64,000 nt of DNA, from positions 806,001 to 870,000 of the forward strand of contig NZ_AFBG01000018.1 in the NCBI RefSeq assembly GCF_000204195.1, in the 5' to 3' direction. Source of the stretch: Acidovorax radicis N35 (GTDB lineage Bacteria; Pseudomonadota; Gammaproteobacteria; Burkholderiales; Burkholderiaceae_C). A program made the position numbers and the translations under genes. Positions 4,107-35,090 of the stretch are shown one piece after another. Numbering within the stretch: position 1 is the first letter of the stretch; each line of letters starts with the position of its first letter. The notes under the pieces were generated by a model that saw nothing but the letters and a program-made list of their open reading frames with translations, had not been told where the DNA came from and did not search any database.

Positions 4107-4125
4107 TCATGGCGTAGCGCACGAC

Positions 4126-4258
4126 ACTGGCGCGGCCTAGGCCAGGGCGGCCGCGCAAGGGCCGCCCCGCCGCGCTGGCTGCGTCCCCCTGCCCGCAGCG
4201 CATAGCGATGCGAGAGCGGGGGGAAGACGCGAAGCGGCTCAGGGGGGTGTTCTCTATT
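4126..4258. repeat. Dispersed repeat family 2, copy 1
   Basis: Fills the gap between the ytfR- and ytfT-like genes. On the + strand it starts ACTGGCGCGG, has a core GCAAGGGCCGCCCCGCCG then GGCTGCGTCCCCCT, and ends near GAAGCGGCTCAGGGGG. The same order of blocks recurs at 7073, 31427 and, inverted, 54150. Confidence 0.85.
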
Positions 4259-7036: not shown

Positions 7037-8680
7037 TTATGCGTTGCGCTGGTTGCTGTTCGATGCGTCCACACTGGCGCTGCCCAGACCAGGGCCGCCG
7101 TGCAAGGGCCGCCCCGCCGCACGGGCTGCGTCCCCCTTGGGGGGGATGGCGCGAAGCGCCTCAGGGGGGGCATTTACTATGACGCGCATGATCTTTTCCT
7201 GCGTTGCCTCGGCGGTGGGCATCTCGGCGACAAAGCGGCCTTCGTTCATCACGTACAGGCGGTCGGTGATGCCCAGCAGCTCGGGCATTTCTGAAGAGAT
7301 CACGATCACGCACTTGCCCTCGGCCGCCAGCTGGGCGATGAGGGTGTAGATCTCGTACTTGGCGCCCACGTCAATTCCGCGCGTGGGCTCGTCGAGGATC
7401 AGCACTTCGGGGTTGGTAAAGAGCCATTTGCTCAGCACCACTTTTTGCTGGTTGCCACCTGATAGGTTCAGCGTTTTCTGGTCCACGCCCGAGCAGCGGA
7501 TGCGCAGCTTCTCGCGGTAGTCCTGCGCCACGCGGTGCTCGCGGCCGCTGTCGATCACGGCGGCCGTGGAGACGCCACCCAGGTTGGCCAGCGACACGTT
7601 GAACTGGATGTCTTCGCTCAGCACCAACCCGTTGCCCTTGCGGTCTTCAGTCACGTAGGCCAGGCCATGGGCCACGGCCTTCTCTACCGTACCCACGTCG
7701 ATGGGGCGGCCGTGCAGCAGCACCTGCCCACCGATGCGCTCGCCCCAGGAGCGGCCAAAGATGCTCATGGCCAGCTCGGTGCGGCCTGCGCCCATCAGCC
7801 CGGCAATGCCCACGATCTCGCCTTTGCGGACCTGCAGGTTGATGTTTTTGATAAAGGCGCGCTCGGGGCGCTGCGGGTGGTATGCGTTCCAGTCGCGCAC
7901 CTCAAACACCGTCTCGCCGATGCACGGCTCGCGCGGGGGGTAGCGGTCGGCCATCTCGCGGCCGACCATGGCCTTGATCACGCGGTCTTCGCTCACGGGC
8001 GCTGCGCGGCAGTCCATCGTCTCGACGGTGCTGCCGTCGCGCAGCACGGTGATGGAGTCCGCCACGCGCGAGATCTCGTTGAGCTTGTGCGAGATCAGGA
8101 TGCAGGTGATTCCCTGGGCCTTGAGCTCCAGCAGCAAATCCAGCAGTGCCTGGCTGTCGTTTTCGTTCAGGCTCGCGGTGGGTTCGTCCAGGATCAACAG
8201 GCGCACCTGGCGTGACAGCGCCTTGGCGATCTCCACCAGTTGCTGCTTGCCCACGCCCAGGTGGGTGATCAGTGTTTCGGGCGATTCGCGCAGGCCCACC
8301 TTGTGCAGCAGTGCTTGCGTTTTGCTGTGCGCCGCCATCCAGTCGATGACGCCGTACTGCGCGGTCTCGTTGCCCAGGAAGATGTTTTCTGCGATGGAGA
8401 GCAGGGGCACCAGGGCCAGCTCCTGGTGGATGATGATCACGCCCAGGTGTTCGCTGTCGCGGATGCCGCCGAACTGGCGTTCTTCGCCGTCATAGACAAT
8501 CTCGCCGCTGTAGCTGCCGTGCGGGTATACGCCGGAGAGCACCTTCATCAGCGTGGACTTGCCAGCGCCGTTCTCGCCGACGATGGCGTGGATTTCACCC
8601 GCCTTCACGCGCAGGTTCACTTGGTTCAGTGCCACCACACCAGGGAATGTTTTGCGGATATTCCGCATTTCAAGAAGCAT
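7037..8680 (-). CDS. gguA: Multiple-sugar ABC transporter ATP-binding protein, GguA/XylG type, with a repeat-derived tail
   Basis: 547 residues from the ATG at 8680, chosen because [15 protein letters not shown] is the usual family start and GAGAC lies just before it; the open frame continues upstream but without similarity. Two ABC domains are present: Walker [10 protein letters not shown] at 35-43, [12 protein letters not shown], then [18 protein letters not shown] and [11 protein letters not shown]. It powers sugar uptake with GguB and ChvE. Family members normally end soon after the last helix. Here about 45 extra residues, starting near residue 502 ([13 protein letters not shown]), are encoded by a copy of a dispersed palindromic repeat and run up to five bases before the gguB start. 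Confidence 0.93.
7073..7176. repeat. Dispersed repeat family 2, copy 2 (inside the gguA reading frame)
   Basis: Same blocks as copy 1: ACTGGCGC, GTGCAAGGGCCGCCCCGCCG, GGGCTGCGTCCCCCTT, GGCGCGAAGCGCCTCAGG. It lies within the last codons of the minus-strand GguA gene and supplies the C-terminal tail. Confidence 0.85.
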
Positions 8681-12653: not shown

Positions 12654-13616
12654 ATGAGCACCTACAACCACTGGTTCATCCGCGCCCGCCTCAAGACGCG
12701 CCAACTGCTGCTGCTGGTGGCGCTGGCCGAGGAAGGCAACATCCACCGCGCCGCCCAGGTGCTGAGCATGACGCAGCCTGCTGCGTCCAAGCTGCTCAAG
12801 GACCTGGAGGACGTGCTGGAGGTGCCGCTGTTCGAGCGCCTGCCGCGCGGCATGCGGCCCACTTGGTATGGCGAAACCATGATCCGCCACGCCCGCATGG
12901 CCCTGGCCAGCCTGAACCAGGCGCACGACGAGATCGGCGCGCTCAAGACCGGCCACTACGGCCAGGTGGGCATCGGCGCTATCACCTCACCGGGCCTGAG
13001 CCTGCTGCCCGCCGCCGTGGCGCTGGTCAAGCAGGAGCACCCCAGCCTGCGCATCTCGCTCGACATTGAAACCAGCCCGGTGCTGCTGGAGCGGCTGGAG
13101 CAGGGCAAGCTCGACATCGTGGTGGGCCGCCTGTATGAAGAGCACGACAAAGGCAACCTGCGCTACGAACCGCTGACGGAGGAGCTGGTCTGCGCCATCA
13201 CCCGGCCCGGCCATCCGCTGTCGAGCATGAGCGGGCTGACGCTGCGCGACGTGGTCTCAGCCGGCTGGATCGTGCCGCCTGCCGGCAGTGTGCTGCGCCA
13301 TCGGTTCGACCTGATGTTCCAGCAGGATGGGCTGGCGCCGCCGCTGCACACGGTGGAGACATCGGCGCTGTTGTTCATCACGCGCATGCTGCAGCAGAGC
13401 GACATGATTGCAGTGGTGGGGGCGGATGTGGCGCACTACTACGCGGCGCACGGCCTTGTGACGGTGTTGCCGCTGGAGATGCCTTGCCATATGGATGCGT
13501 TCGGGATCATCACGCGGTCGGATAGGCTGTTGTCACCTGCGGCCAAGGTGATGATGAGGGCGTTGAAGCAGACGAGTCTGGTGCAGTACGGGCGGAGGCT
13601 GGAGGCGGGGGATTGA
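12654..13616 (+). CDS. gbpR: LysR-family regulator, GbpR-like (sugar-binding-protein regulator)
   Basis: 320 residues with an N-terminal winged helix (LLLLVALAEEGNIHRAAQVL, QPAASKLLKDLEDVL) and a C-terminal effector domain. The start FIRARLKTRQL and the phrase ERLPRGMRPTWYGE are typical of GbpR, the LysR protein that controls chvE-type galactose/arabinose uptake genes in Rhizobiales and Azospirillum. It is divergent from the ALDH-ytfQ-chvE operon and so is the natural candidate for its sugar-responsive regulator; it may also control the SDR/lactonase pair. The effector is unknown. Confidence 0.9.
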   Translation: MSTYNHWFIRARLKTRQLLLLVALAEEGNIHRAAQVLSMTQPAASKLLKDLEDVLEVPLFERLPRGMRPTWYGETMIRHARMALASLNQAHDEIGALKTGHYGQVGIGAITSPGLSLLPAAVALVKQEHPSLRISLDIETSPVLLERLEQGKLDIVVGRLYEEHDKGNLRYEPLTEELVCAITRPGHPLSSMSGLTLRDVVSAGWIVPPAGSVLRHRFDLMFQQDGLAPPLHTVETSALLFITRMLQQSDMIAVVGADVAHYYAAHGLVTVLPLEMPCHMDAFGIITRSDRLLSPAAKVMMRALKQTSLVQYGRRLEAGD

Positions 13617-13627
13617 TTTTTTGAATC

Positions 13628-13680
13628 GAATTGGTTGCTGGCGCTTTCTGGCAAAGCGCTAGCAGCTATTGTTTTTGTAG
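13628..13680. repeat. Dispersed repeat family 1, copy 1 (left arm of composite palindrome)
   Basis: Core GCTGGCGCTTTCTGGCAAAG then CGCTAGCAGCTATTG. Inverted relative to copy 2 at 14501. Confidence 0.8.
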
Positions 13681-14500
13681 TCCTTTGTTCTTGCGGACCC
13701 GTTCGGGCTGAGCCTGCCGAAGCCAGTGCTTGTGCGCTGGTTTGGTGGTGTGCTTGTGTGGAGGGCGGGAGCCGGGTCTCGCCCCGGCGGGCGAGGTACT
13801 TGTTCTTTGCTTCGCCAAAGAAAAGTACCCAAAAGAAAGGCGACCCCCAGTCTGCGACCCCTTCGCTTCGCTGCGGGGCAACCTGCGTCGGGGCGGTTGC
13901 GGGGTGCGCCGCAGAACTCACTTCGCTGCTTTGCAGCTCCGTTCGGACAACTGCGGCGAGTCAGTTCACGAAGCACGCGCGCTCCGACGCGCGTGCCACC
14001 CCGCAACCGCCCCGCCGCAGGCGCAGCCAGCAGGGGGTGGACAGCCGAACATCCAACAGCCGAACAGCCGCACGGGCCTTTGCTTCGCTCGGCCGCGCCT
14101 GCGCAGCGCGTGGCGCTTGCGCCCGCGAGGTGGGGCCGAGCGCAGCGACGGCCCGAATGGATGTCCGATCCCGGTGGGTTCCCTTCAGGATGCGCCGAGG
14201 AGCGGAGGTTTTGGCGGATCAGGGCTCGCGTCTGTTTGAGTGACGCGAAGCGGCGCGAGTTTAGCGAGACCCCGTCAAAACTGAGCACCGCAGGTTGCCC
14301 GTAGCGAAGCGAAGGGACGCAGCGTGTAGGGTCGCCTTCTCTTTGGTGACTTTCTCTTGGCGATCCAAGAAAAAGTTACTGCGCCGCCGGGCGCACACCC
14401 CGGCCTCCGCCCTCAAACCAGGCACGCCGCACAGATCAGCGAACGAGCGTGCCCCGGCTCCGACAAGCTCAGTCGAACGGACGAGGGCCCCGCAGGAACT

Positions 14501-14545
14501 GCAAAAACCATAGCTGCCAGCGCTTGATAGAAAAGCGCTGGAGCC
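14501..14545. repeat. Dispersed repeat family 1, copy 2 (right arm of composite palindrome)
   Basis: Core CATAGCTGCCAGCGCTTGAT then AGAAAAGCGCTGGAGCC. It ends close to the stop codon of the SDR gene. Confidence 0.8.
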
Positions 14546-14562
14546 TAAAAAGACCTAAAAAC

Positions 14563-15396
14563 TCAAACCCACCCCGCATCCACCTTGAACTCCTGCGCCG
14601 TACACATTGCCCCATCGTCCGACGCCAAGAACAGCACCATGCGCGCAATATCATGCGGCCGCAGTTTGTCCGGCAAACACTGGTTCCGTGCAATCTCCTC
14701 CTCGCCCTTCGCATCGAGCCACAGCTTGATCTGCCGCTCCGTCATCACCCAGCCGGGCGACACGGTGTTGATGCGGATGCGGTCCTGCCCCAGCGTCTTG
14801 GCCAGCCCGCGCGTGAGGCCGTTCACCGACGACTTGGCGATCGCATAGCAGGGGTAGCCCGTGCCCTTGCCCTGCCAGCCGGTGGAGCCCAGGTTGACCA
14901 CCGAGCCGCCGCCCAGCTTGCGCATGCCTGGCACCACGGACTGGATGGCGAAGAAGGCCGGGCGTTCGTTGATGGCCATGCGCTCGTCGTAGTAGGCGGG
15001 CGTGACGGATTCCAGCGTGTGGCGGTCGTCGCTGGCCACGTTGTTCACCAGCACCGAAAAGTCGCCCAGCTCGGCGGCGGCCTCGGCAATGCAGGCCTGC
15101 AGTGCCCCGATATCGCGCACATCGCAGGTGCGCCACCAGGGGCGCTCCATGCCGGCGTCGGCCAGTTGCTGCGCCAGGGCCTCGCTGGCCTCGCGGGCCA
15201 CGTCCACAAAGGCTACGCGGGCGCCTTGTTCTGCAAACGCGGCCACGATGGCGGCGCCAATGCCGCTGCCGCCGCCCGTGATGAACACCGAGCGCCCGCG
15301 CAGGCTGGGAAAGCGCGACAAGCCCTGCGACCCTGCCGCCGTGGTGGTGCTGGAGGAGGAAGAGGAGGGGAGATACGTGTCGGAAGAATGTGACAT
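14563..15396 (-). CDS. SDR-family aldose (pentose/galactose) 1-dehydrogenase
   Basis: 277-residue classical short-chain dehydrogenase. The NAD(P) motif TGGGSGIG is at 40-47, an Asp65 at the end of strand two suggests NAD preference, and NNV is at 118-120. The catalytic set is Ser171, Tyr184 and Lys188 (YAIAK). A serine-rich, poorly conserved lead of about 30 residues precedes the fold. Next to an SMP-30 lactonase (divergent) and aldose epimerase it most likely oxidises an aldopyranose such as L-arabinose, D-xylose or D-galactose at C1 to the lactone. The exact sugar cannot be read from the sequence. The stop codon abuts the composite palindrome. Confidence 0.88.
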   Translation of the reverse strand: MSHSSDTYLPSSSSSSTTTAAGSQGLSRFPSLRGRSVFITGGGSGIGAAIVAAFAEQGARVAFVDVAREASEALAQQLADAGMERPWWRTCDVRDIGALQACIAEAAAELGDFSVLVNNVASDDRHTLESVTPAYYDERMAINERPAFFAIQSVVPGMRKLGGGSVVNLGSTGWQGKGTGYPCYAIAKSSVNGLTRGLAKTLGQDRIRINTVSPGWVMTERQIKLWLDAKGEEEIARNQCLPDKLRPHDIARMVLFLASDDGAMCTAQEFKVDAGWV

Positions 15397-17521: not shown

Positions 17522-17524
17522 ATT

Positions 17525-17598
17525 TTGATAAAAATTGGCCCTGGCGCTTGATGGGTAAAGTTTTATTGCTATTTAAAAAGTAGCAATCAAGCTAGGCC
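17525..17598. repeat. Dispersed repeat family 1, copy 3
   Basis: Blocks GGCCCTGGCGCTTGATGG, TTATTGCTATTT and TAGCAATCAAGC directly behind the epimerase stop codon. The hairpin part is less regular than in other copies. It may act as a bidirectional terminator. Confidence 0.7.
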
Positions 17599-18783: not shown

Positions 18784-20637
18784 ATGAACACCAAACCCGG
18801 AAGCACTGGCCCGTTGGCACTGCTGGCAATGCTGGTGGCCGCGCTGCCCTTTGCCGCCTCGGCCCAAACGATCTCCAGTGGTGCCCCTGCCGTGGCCAAT
18901 GTGCCGGTGGACAACCCGCTGGCGCTGGTCGCCTTGCTGGTGGCGGTTGCGCTGGCCGGGTGGTGGTCGCTGCGCCGCAGCCACGGTGTGCGGCGTGTGG
19001 TATCGCTGCTTTTGGTGGCTGCGGTGGCGGGCCTGGCGGGGCAGGGGTCGGGCCTGATGGCGCAGGTTGTCAGCGCGTTCACCCATCCTGCTGGCGAGAC
19101 CCTGCCCATCACCGTCAGCCCGATCACGGCCGGTGGCTTCACGGGCTTCCAACCTGCGGACTTCAGCAATAACTCAGGCGCTGCGCTGCGGATTGCAGCG
19201 ATCGCCCCTCCCAACCTGGCCCAGTGTTTTGCCACCAACCCGGCCAACACCTTGCTGCCCCCCGGGCCGCCCACGCCATCGCCCCATCCCGCCTGCGGCG
19301 TGGGGGCCATGCTGGCCAACGGCGCCACCTGCCGGGTGGATGTCGAGGCCATCTGCCGCAGCCTCTATGCCTCTGGCGCCACGCTGACCGCCCTCAGCCC
19401 CAGCTCCGGCACCGCATCGGGCGGGGTCGGCGTCACGCTGACTGGCACCGGGTTCACCGGTGCCACCAGCGTCACATTTGACGGGGTGCCTGCAACCTCG
19501 GTCAACGTGGTCAACGCCACCACCATCACCGCCGTCACACCAGCGCACGCAGCCGGTGCCGTCAATGTGGTGGTCATCACCCCGGGCGGGGCCGCCCAGC
19601 TGGCTGGTGGCTACACCTACCTCACCGCAGCCGTTCTGACCAGCAGCAGCCCCAGCTCCGGCACCGAACTGGGCGGGACTGCGGTGACGCTGACCGGAAC
19701 CGGGCTGACGGGCGCCACCGGCGTGACGTTTGACGGCGTACCTGCAAACTCGGTCACCGTGGTCAACGCCACCACCATCACGGCCGTCACGCCTGCGCAC
19801 GCCGTGGGTGTGGTGGACGTGGTGGTCACCACCCCCGCCGGGGCCGCCTCGCTGGTCAACGGCTATACCTATCTCACTGCAGTCGTGCCGAGCACACTGA
19901 CCGCCATCGGCCCCAACTCCGGCACCGCATCGGGCGGGGTTGGCGTCACGCTGACCGGTACCGGGCTGACCGGCGCCACCAGCGTCACGTTTGACGGGGT
20001 GCCAGCAACGTCGGTCAACGTGATCAACTCCAGCACCATTACAGCCGTCACACCCGCACACGCGGTGGGTGTGGTGGACGTGGTGGTTAATACCCCCGCC
20101 GGGGCCGCCCAGCTGACCAACGGCTATACCTACCTTGCCACCGCTGTGGGGCAAAGCAGCGGGGGCGGCGTGATCGCGGTGATCAACGGCGGGTTGAACA
20201 ACCTGATTGCGGCCACGGCAGACAACAACACCGGGATCGGGTGGGGTGGCTTCGGCACGGCCGTGGGGCCGGGTGCGCAAAGCGACACCGACGGTGCCAG
20301 CAACACCGCCGCCGTCGGTGCGACGCTGGGTGCGGGTGTTTATGCCGCGCAACTGTGCAGCACCTACCAGGTCGATTCGCAAGGGAATACACCCTGCCAG
20401 GCGGGCAACACCTGCTACAACGACTGGTTCCTGCCCGCCCGCAACCAGCTCGCGGCGCTGTATACCAACAGGGTGGCGGTAGGCGGCTTCGCCAACGCCC
20501 TCTATTGGAGCTCCACCGAGAGCTCGGCCTCGCCCCTGACCGATGCATGGATCAATGATTTTTCCATCGGCAATCCGGTGACCATCCCCAAGAACCAAAA
20601 CCTGCAGACGCGGTGCGTGCGTGCCTTCACGCCTTGA
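18784..20637 (+). CDS. Exported IPT/TIG-repeat protein with Lcl (DUF1566) C-terminal domain and internal exosortase-like segment
   Basis: 617 residues. A signal peptide (to about 28, ending PFAASAQ) is followed by PVDNPLALVALLVAVALAGW and the basic cluster SLRRSHGVRR, that is a motif, a hydrophobic helix and arginines near residues 41-71. This is the layout of exosortase sorting signals but placed inside the protein, as in families described as midcut-by-XrtH. A second hydrophobic stretch follows. Three IPT/TIG immunoglobulin-like repeats of about 85 residues begin near 201, 285 and 372 (SPSSGTASGGVGVTLTGTGF). From about 457 comes an Lcl-type domain with CYNDWFLPARNQLAAL and YWSSTESS. Probably surface-located; ligand unknown. 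Confidence 0.85.
   Translation: MNTKPGSTGPLALLAMLVAALPFAASAQTISSGAPAVANVPVDNPLALVALLVAVALAGWWSLRRSHGVRRVVSLLLVAAVAGLAGQGSGLMAQVVSAFTHPAGETLPITVSPITAGGFTGFQPADFSNNSGAALRIAAIAPPNLAQCFATNPANTLLPPGPPTPSPHPACGVGAMLANGATCRVDVEAICRSLYASGATLTALSPSSGTASGGVGVTLTGTGFTGATSVTFDGVPATSVNVVNATTITAVTPAHAAGAVNVVVITPGGAAQLAGGYTYLTAAVLTSSSPSSGTELGGTAVTLTGTGLTGATGVTFDGVPANSVTVVNATTITAVTPAHAVGVVDVVVTTPAGAASLVNGYTYLTAVVPSTLTAIGPNSGTASGGVGVTLTGTGLTGATSVTFDGVPATSVNVINSSTITAVTPAHAVGVVDVVVNTPAGAAQLTNGYTYLATAVGQSSGGGVIAVINGGLNNLIAATADNNTGIGWGGFGTAVGPGAQSDTDGASNTAAVGATLGAGVYAAQLCSTYQVDSQGNTPCQAGNTCYNDWFLPARNQLAALYTNRVAVGGFANALYWSSTESSASPLTDAWINDFSIGNPVTIPKNQNLQTRCVRAFTP
19384..20152 (+). repeat. Three tandem IPT-domain coding repeats
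   Basis: Units start near 19384, 19636 and 19899, about 250-265 bases each, with long nearly identical stretches (for example ACCGGCGCCACCAGCGTCAC and TTTGACGGGGTGCC). Units one and three are the closest pair, suggesting recent duplication or gene conversion. Confidence 0.8.
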
Positions 20638-20680
20638 AGGCCGGGGCGCATGCCGTAAAACGCCGAAAATTTGGTTGAAA

Positions 20681-20726
20681 TATGCTCTGGCGCTTGATGG
20701 AGAAGCGCCAGAAGCTATCAAATAGT
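20681..20726. repeat. Dispersed repeat family 1, copy 4; otherwise featureless gap
   Basis: Core CTCTGGCGCTTGATGGAGAA then GCGCCAGAAGCTATCAAA, a clear hairpin. It sits in the 305-base gap between the IPT protein and the diguanylate cyclase, in which nothing else is evident. Confidence 0.8.
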
Positions 20727-32991: not shown

Positions 32992-33040
32992 AAATATGGA
33001 AGTACCAAAATGAGCTGCAGCGAACGATTCCGTGAAAAAT

Positions 33041-33101
33041 TGAGTCTAAATGGGTGCTGGCGCTTATTGGTATTGCGCAATAAGCTATAAAAACAATAGC
33101 G
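33041..33101. repeat. Dispersed repeat family 1, copy 6
   Basis: Core GGGTGCTGGCGCTTATTGGT then ATTGCGCAATAAGCTATAAA between the divergent arsR and metN genes. The rest of the 300-base gap shows no riboswitch-like structure I can recognise. Confidence 0.7.
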
Positions 33102-35020: not shown

Positions 35021-35090
35021 TTTGCTATTGAATAAATAGCTGCTAGCGCTTGATGGTCAAGCGCCAGGGGCCAATTTCATTCAAATTTTC
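35021..35090. repeat. Dispersed repeat family 1, copy 7
   Basis: Core AATAGCTGCTAGCGCTTGAT then GGTCAAGCGCCAGGGGCC, a strong hairpin behind metI; possible terminator. Confidence 0.8.

Follow-up and report, generated by a model that had tools for sequence, protein, structure and literature searches.

MITEs are dispersed intergenic elements that have inverted ends and carry no gene. Ribosomal RNA operons are recombination nodes, whose few dispersed copies undergo concerted evolution and may swap flanks. As far as the available parts of the sources go, REP units measure 20–40 bp (PMC3733652) or 21–65 nt with a tagged foot (PMC6006769), the Bordetella repeat BRE is a dispersed intergenic repeat of ~90 bp, often in tandem, of Betaproteobacteria including Comamonadaceae (PMC3110155), and long interrupted palindromes in E. 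coli, studied as laboratory constructs, are cleaved by SbcCD (PMC4245961).

The palindrome of Acidovorax radicis N35 described here resembles each of these systems in part. Like REP, BIME and REPIN elements with TnpA-REP (RAYT), as the accessible part of one source describes them (PMC3733652), it is extragenic, palindromic, dispersed and located downstream of genes or between convergent genes; it also has a composite inverted arrangement, and is rarely found between divergent genes (1 of 60 loci). In contrast to REP, its core is ~650 bp long, a GTAG or CGTC tag is absent at the core ends by reading, and the element lies away from the Y1_Tnp genes of the genus (14 loci) and has no G.U excess. 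With bacterial MITEs (ERIC, QMITE, RUP and others), so far as the available part of a review covers them (PMC10969869), it shares inverted ends, the lack of a gene, dispersal, intergenic position and the occurrence of truncated and full forms together, but no parental IS was found among the 60 loci and the copies are homogenised inside conserved sites. It is ten times longer than BRE as described, and palindromic. Its size and interrupted palindromic form are those of the E. coli palindromes cleaved by SbcCD in the part of that study available (PMC4245961), except that it is a natural multicopy family and imperfect, the arms of its outer core stems being 86% complementary. Few dispersed copies evolving in concert and flank exchange are shared with ribosomal RNA operons, whereas the element is non-coding, palindromic and without a known product. 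Judged by the partial descriptions of REP, MITE and BRE at hand, the repeat is set apart from described dispersed palindromic repeats by size, behaviour and polarity. The literature searched, preprints and subscription papers aside, held no description or name of this repeat family, and the letters of its inverted end were absent from the full text searched. We propose that the element is probably one copy in a DNA-level family of composite, non-coding palindromes that are dispersed through Acidovorax genomes and homogenised by recombination, perhaps via hairpin breakage at replication forks.

Results

A composite palindrome fills the gap between convergent LysR and SDR genes

The window, the whole 64,000-nt stretch of DNA analysed here, contains a large palindrome at 13628–14560. 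It fills the gap between the stop codons of a LysR-type regulator gene (12654–13616, + strand; Pfam PF03466, PF00126), whose stop codon adjoins the element, and a short-chain dehydrogenase (SDR) gene (14563–15396, − strand; PF13561, PF00106), so the two genes are convergent. RNA folding of 13620–14570 yielded a composite palindrome in which 13633–14545 forms one hairpin, with an MFE of −560.7 kcal/mol against a shuffle mean of −413.8 (sd 9; z −16; 0 of 20 shuffles as low). A sequence-only reading had placed a large gene-free palindrome here, built of at least five nested block pairs and ending on both sides in inverted copies of a dispersed repeat, 'family 1', and separating two putative halves of a sugar catabolic module. 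Its coordinates hold. Four outer helices are indeed nested (13633–13681/14498–14545, 13689–13776/14399–14497, 13781–13792/14381–14394 and 13832–13887/14289–14344), but the blocks inside the last of these (13889–13906/13997–14014, 14061–14100/14128–14167, 14219–14238/14246–14267 and smaller ones) lie side by side. The terminal 'family 1' copies were recovered as the outermost helix, a dispersed hairpin with many matches in the genome. The best ungapped arm pair of the palindrome is 25 nt, 96% complementary.

From the outside in, terminator-like repeats that face inward come first, followed by an outer palindrome whose inverted ends measure 25 bp and then by a conserved core of ~650 bp. The left 'family 1' repeat (13633–13681, + strand) is a hairpin followed by a T-rich run and has the shape of an intrinsic terminator, putatively for the LysR gene; its partner (14498–14545, − strand), supported by the predicted helix and by the counts of inward repeats across copies, is terminator-like for the SDR gene. 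Further single copies of this repeat, 68–81% alike, occur in the window at 17524–17554, 20670–20700, 33040–33070 and 35026–35056, and from sequence it seems to be a reusable terminator module across the genome. The left inverted end, CCGTTCGGGCTGAGCCTGCCGAAGC(C) (13699–13724, + strand), has matches in the own genome and lies at the outer border of many copies; the right one (14456–14480, − strand), as read in the sequence, is degenerate in the window copy and intact in other copies.

The core occupies 13764–14412, and its orientation in the window is taken as +. A small hairpin, GCCGGG-N-CCCCGGC, can be read near each core end (13771–13788 and 14386–14404). The left arm carries a predicted hairpin block (TACTT..CTTTGCTTCGCCAAAG..AAGTA; 13795–13829) that is kin to a widespread motif, scanned below in its right-arm form. 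Further inside are a hairpin with a 25-nt stem (13882–14021; stem 13882–13906/13997–14021), which is among the stretches most conserved over copies, and a second one, seen in arm pairing and in the predicted fold, whose 40-nt arms are 75% complementary (14061–14167). The right core arm (14289–14380) is predicted to pair with 13832–13887 and has its own small hairpin at 14345–14380.

Mechanical ORFs in the palindrome reach 209 aa. Four ORFs inside it gave no Pfam match at E ≤ 1, and across copies the core showed neither period-3 variation nor a preferred length modulo 3 and no conserved frame, and a coding gene was rejected. No transposase gene is present inside the window palindrome and none was called inside any of 60 loci. 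The absence of a plausible gene or transposase noted in the sequence-only reading is thus sustained, and neither a recognised IS or MITE family nor a conserved protein emerged from Rfam, Pfam (four ORFs), a phage collection or the frame test. Rfam had no match anywhere in the window at gathering; at E ≤ 5 it returned only animal and viral miRNA and IRES models, far under their cut-offs and chance-like, and a known RNA family was therefore rejected. A phage origin was likewise rejected, there being no match among 50,697 phage records. The block motif is present in three viral contigs, and six plasmid records have partial matches to the element.

The element is a multicopy family at gene-end sites

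A 981-nt query was searched against the own genome (5.53 Mb in 30 contigs). The 55 matches comprised one copy 92% identical, three other long copies at 76–78%, an 86% identical half copy, and numerous short matches to the outer ends. Across the genus Acidovorax, matches at E ≤ 1e-100 occur in 38 of 47 genomes, and at E ≤ 0.001, where matches to the outer repeats alone are included, in 46 of 47; G001 (no match) and G008 (a single one, at E 1e-4) are in practice without the element. Among the matches listed, the complete Acidovorax genomes examined hold some 6–10 primary copies each. At the family level, a match was obtained in 91 of the 150 genomes sampled. A scan of named genomes for a 23-nt core-arm motif gave at least 120 stretches, and the matches listed include Polaromonas, Thiobacillus, Methylobacter, Lysobacter, Rheinheimera and Pseudomonas. 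Among these listed matches, 83 stretches had enough sequence around the motif; its inverted partner lay 387–628 bp off in 40 of them and within 1500 bp in 44, compared with 5 of 83 for the reversed motif. By sequence likeness, relatives of the element extend to other Beta- and Gammaproteobacteria.

Copies for comparison were selected by likeness to the window copy, giving 60 loci from 21 genomes. Alignment of 58 long copies with the window copy (59 in all; a half core, L133, and a 156-bp form, L134, were excluded from core counts) gave an agreement per 40-nt bin of 0.73–0.93 within 13764–14403 and 0.40–0.66 outside, which sets the core limits at about 13764–14412. The small hairpin of 17–19 nt occurs twice where the core is present and once in the core-less forms L134 in G000 (156 bp) and L173 in G035 (338-bp gap). 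An inward terminator-like repeat flanks 39 of 59 cores on the left, 45 on the right and 30 on both sides; none points outward on the left.

The arms outside the core end in CCGTTCGGGCTGAGCYTGTCGAAGC. This inverted end has 34 matches in the own genome at ≤3 mismatches and none for a reversed-pattern control. Terminal inverted repeats are present, but not at both ends in every copy, and no duplicated flank bases were seen at them by eye. Several matches are paired 35 bp apart and form stand-alone hairpins of ~60 bp; solo hairpins with a common centre at G000:C7:184654, C13:633547, C10:322183 and C16:18912 possibly represent a small repeat family of their own. The suggestion that the blocks are individually mobile holds only in part: the terminator-like repeat and the inverted end occur alone, but the inner ~650 bp acts as one unit in block order across copies.

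Neighbouring genes at the 60 loci are convergent in 37 cases, tandem in 22 and divergent in one; convergence is seen in only 12 of 105 other adjacent gene pairs at these loci (Fisher p 2e-11). In a wider set of named genomes, among the matches listed, the figures are 10 of 34 and 74 of 492. The LysR–SDR site could be traced in 30 loci of the genus. The core is present in 17, is cut by a contig end in L153 and is missing from L152, L159, L166 and L173, which retain outer parts only; the remaining eight have no match to the element. Among these eight, the genes are 7–20 bp apart in L167, L170 and L171, an unrelated 111 bp separates them in L177, the LysR neighbour was not found in L178, and in L168, L169 and L174 the site is occupied instead by a sequence 83–90% alike to window repeat 4110–4215. 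That repeat has a second copy at window 7060–7160, with ~90% agreement between the two over 67 nt; both belong to a dispersed G+C-rich family that may be a candidate Bordetella-type BRE. Core orientation is not fixed at every site: L176 has the core inverted relative to other LysR–SDR loci, and at sites T8 and T10 it is opposite in different species.

Cores are homogenised within genomes and outer arms remember their site

Core identity averaged 0.871 between different sites of one genome (n = 84), 0.828 at the strict same site in different genomes, for which both flanks must match (n = 89), and 0.819 for other pairs (n = 1538). Permuting genome labels 500 times gave a within-genome identity of 0.822 (sd 0.004, maximum 0.837), whereas 38 of 500 permutations of site labels reached the observed same-site identity or more. 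Within-genome identity exceeded between-genome identity in all 10 genomes with at least three copies. When matched by genome pair, same-site minus different-site identity was +0.0015 (36 of 70 positive, p 0.81), and leaving out G000 altered neither result. Paralogues in a genome are thus more alike than orthologues between genomes, the mark of a concertedly evolving family.

The outer arms behave differently. Site memory is absent in five core segments (p 0.25–1) and present in six outer segments (p 1.8e-6 to 0.011); the border is not perfectly sharp, since same-genome identity is also raised over the 60 nt of the outer arms nearest the core. The recombination-derived character that the sequence-only reading had suspected is borne out by this pattern, with the core homogenised within genomes and site memory confined to the outer arms. 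The nearest neighbour of a core (59 cores) came from the same genome in 28 cases, from the same site in 4 and from another genome and another site in 27, so homogenisation is incomplete or cores also pass between species. Core divergence was 0.171 compared with 0.242 at four-fold sites of neighbour genes, a rough neutral yardstick, and was lower in 65 of 75 pairs; the core is therefore slowed either by constraint or by exchange between species.

Arms shuffle between copies. In the outer core stems, a left arm is as complementary to its own right arm (0.856) as to one from another genome (0.855; p 0.96; shuffled letters 0.671), and left and right end types combine without preference (Fisher p 0.35, with no type assigned to 10 left arms and 6 right ones). 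On the + strand of these stems there are 170 G.T pairs and 214 A.C mismatches, hence no G.U excess. Exchange of flanks between sites was seen as a single event. Locus L105 of G023 combines site T11's left flank (an ABC-transporter gene, PF00005) with the right flank of site T7 (a molybdopterin-oxidoreductase gene, PF20256), while in G027 the two sites are separate copies ~55 kb apart in the same orientation. The reciprocal pair of neighbours, coding for a GGDEF and a VWA protein, lies at 609.5 kb of G023, with 242 bp and no element match between the two genes. The mixed flanks of L105 together with the adjoining reciprocal neighbours indicate that recombination joined T11 and T7 in G023.

The core runs with the replication fork

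Polarity was assessed in ten genomes with dnaA located, using the best match per place among the matches listed and leaving out the second contig of G027 and of G037. The origin was taken at dnaA; a dif pattern matched in 0 of the 10 genomes, and the terminus was therefore assumed to lie opposite. Among these matches, the core runs with the fork in 69 of 78 copies (p 1.4e-12) and in 55 of 61 full-length ones. It is also co-directional with the fork in 21 of 23 listed copies between convergent genes, so gene direction does not explain the polarity. Counted by site among the listed matches, because copies at shared sites are not independent, 16 of 19 run with the fork (p 0.004), two are mixed and one runs against it. 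The listed copies are unevenly distant from dnaA, with 9, 34, 24, 8 and 3 per successive fifth of the replichore. For sites T0, T1, T2, T7 and T13 the distance from dnaA in one species mirrors that in another (e.g. 0.84 and 0.16), as after origin-centred inversions.

The fork bias was not reproduced in other genera: it was 9 of 19 in G144, where both arms match the same part of the query and orientation is ambiguous, and 2 of 3 in G118. Strand asymmetry of the fold was rejected as its cause, RNA energies being equal (p 0.13); for DNA the + strand fold is the more stable by ~3 of 260 kcal/mol, with the minus strand ahead in 14 of 59, a difference too slight to carry weight.

Discussion

Overwriting of the core, its stop near the core edges, the mixed arms and the joined sites point to homologous recombination between dispersed copies. 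In the model that we favour, a ~650-bp core sits inside an older, site-specific outer palindrome framed by inward terminator-like repeats, mostly between convergent genes. Cores of one genome would evolve as one family by overwriting each other through homologous recombination, and positions and outer arms would pass down vertically. Break and recombinational repair as in the E. coli palindromes, going by the part of that study available (PMC4245961), would explain the behaviour seen: the interrupted palindrome would form a hairpin during replication, a hairpin nuclease such as SbcCD would cut it, and RecA-type repair would sometimes be templated by another copy. Hairpin breakage at forks would make fork direction matter. 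Against the recombination reading, a history in which cores were lost and re-inserted many times over at these sites would yield much the same pattern.

Such re-insertion is the core of the main rival, in which a single-strand transposase would act. The element would be a MITE-like non-autonomous transposable element, mobilised by a transposase encoded elsewhere (perhaps a single-strand one of the HUH/Y1 type) that re-inserts it repeatedly at the same hairpin tips. We regard this as rather unlikely. The 25-bp inverted ends and the small hairpins, two at the ends of a core and a single one at core-less sites, would suit it, as would orientation with the fork if the lagging-strand template is the target; IS608-like elements target the lagging strand according to the accessible part of one source (PMC6006769). 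A Y1_Tnp gene is present in 44 of 47 genus genomes. However, Y1_Tnp also occurs in G001 and G008, which are without the element, and was not found in the drafts G030, G034 and G041, two of which match the element strongly; the flanks of 14 Y1_Tnp loci have no element match better than E 0.1. No target duplication was seen outside the hairpin, no transposase-bearing copy was met among those examined, and the fork bias was not seen in G144, subject to the ambiguity given above. Moreover, the outer arms keep site memory, so the sites are old. A REP mobilised by RAYT was rejected, because Y1_Tnp distribution and flanks do not fit. One genome, G046, has 37 Y1_Tnp matches and dozens of near-identical Y1 transposase genes, an IS200-like burst absent in relatives in that search.

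A DNA site that serves chromosome replication, or acts on supercoils between convergent genes as proposed for gyrase-binding BIMEs, and whose polarity is kept by selection, appears improbable. It would account for the polarity of copies, convergent loci and sites and for the uneven distance to dnaA (all among the matches listed), and for a core less diverged than neighbouring four-fold sites; yet copies at shared sites are not independent and the yardstick is rough. The element is absent or nearly so in the whole genomes G001 and G008 and without a match in the 8 of 30 orthologous LysR–SDR loci, and two sites carry it in opposite orientations in different species. An RNA element or oversized bidirectional terminator in transcripts of the flanking genes is very unlikely: the convergent position, the inward repeats on both sides of 30 of 59 copies and the very stable fold, which upholds the single large hairpin foreseen by the sequence-only reading, would fit an RNA role, but the arms of the outer core stems show no compensatory coupling, G.T pairs on the + strand do not outnumber A.C mismatches, the terminator-like part is external to the core, other sites manage without a core, and Rfam had no match at gathering.

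Homologous recombination between copies thus remains our preferred reading, and it allows a broader conjecture, possible if speculative. Forks would break a few large, uniformly oriented palindromes, and mutual repair would make distant intergenic sites evolve as one sequence across both chromosome arms, able to exchange flanks, in a protein-free recombination network whose fixed polarity would let the exchanges be survived. Although instability is expected of long palindromes in bacteria, several are carried by most of the Acidovorax genomes examined, at sites that different species have in common. Orthologous spacers without site memory, beside flanks that have it, offer a natural system in which to measure how dispersed palindromes convert one another and repair breaks, and the uniform polarity makes it directly testable whether fork direction bears on the survival of a palindrome. 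Such spacers can also mislead strain comparison, assembly and small-RNA annotation. Elsewhere in the window, at 19380–20160, a unit of ~255 nt is repeated three times in tandem (77–81% alike) and probably represents repeat domains of a coding sequence.
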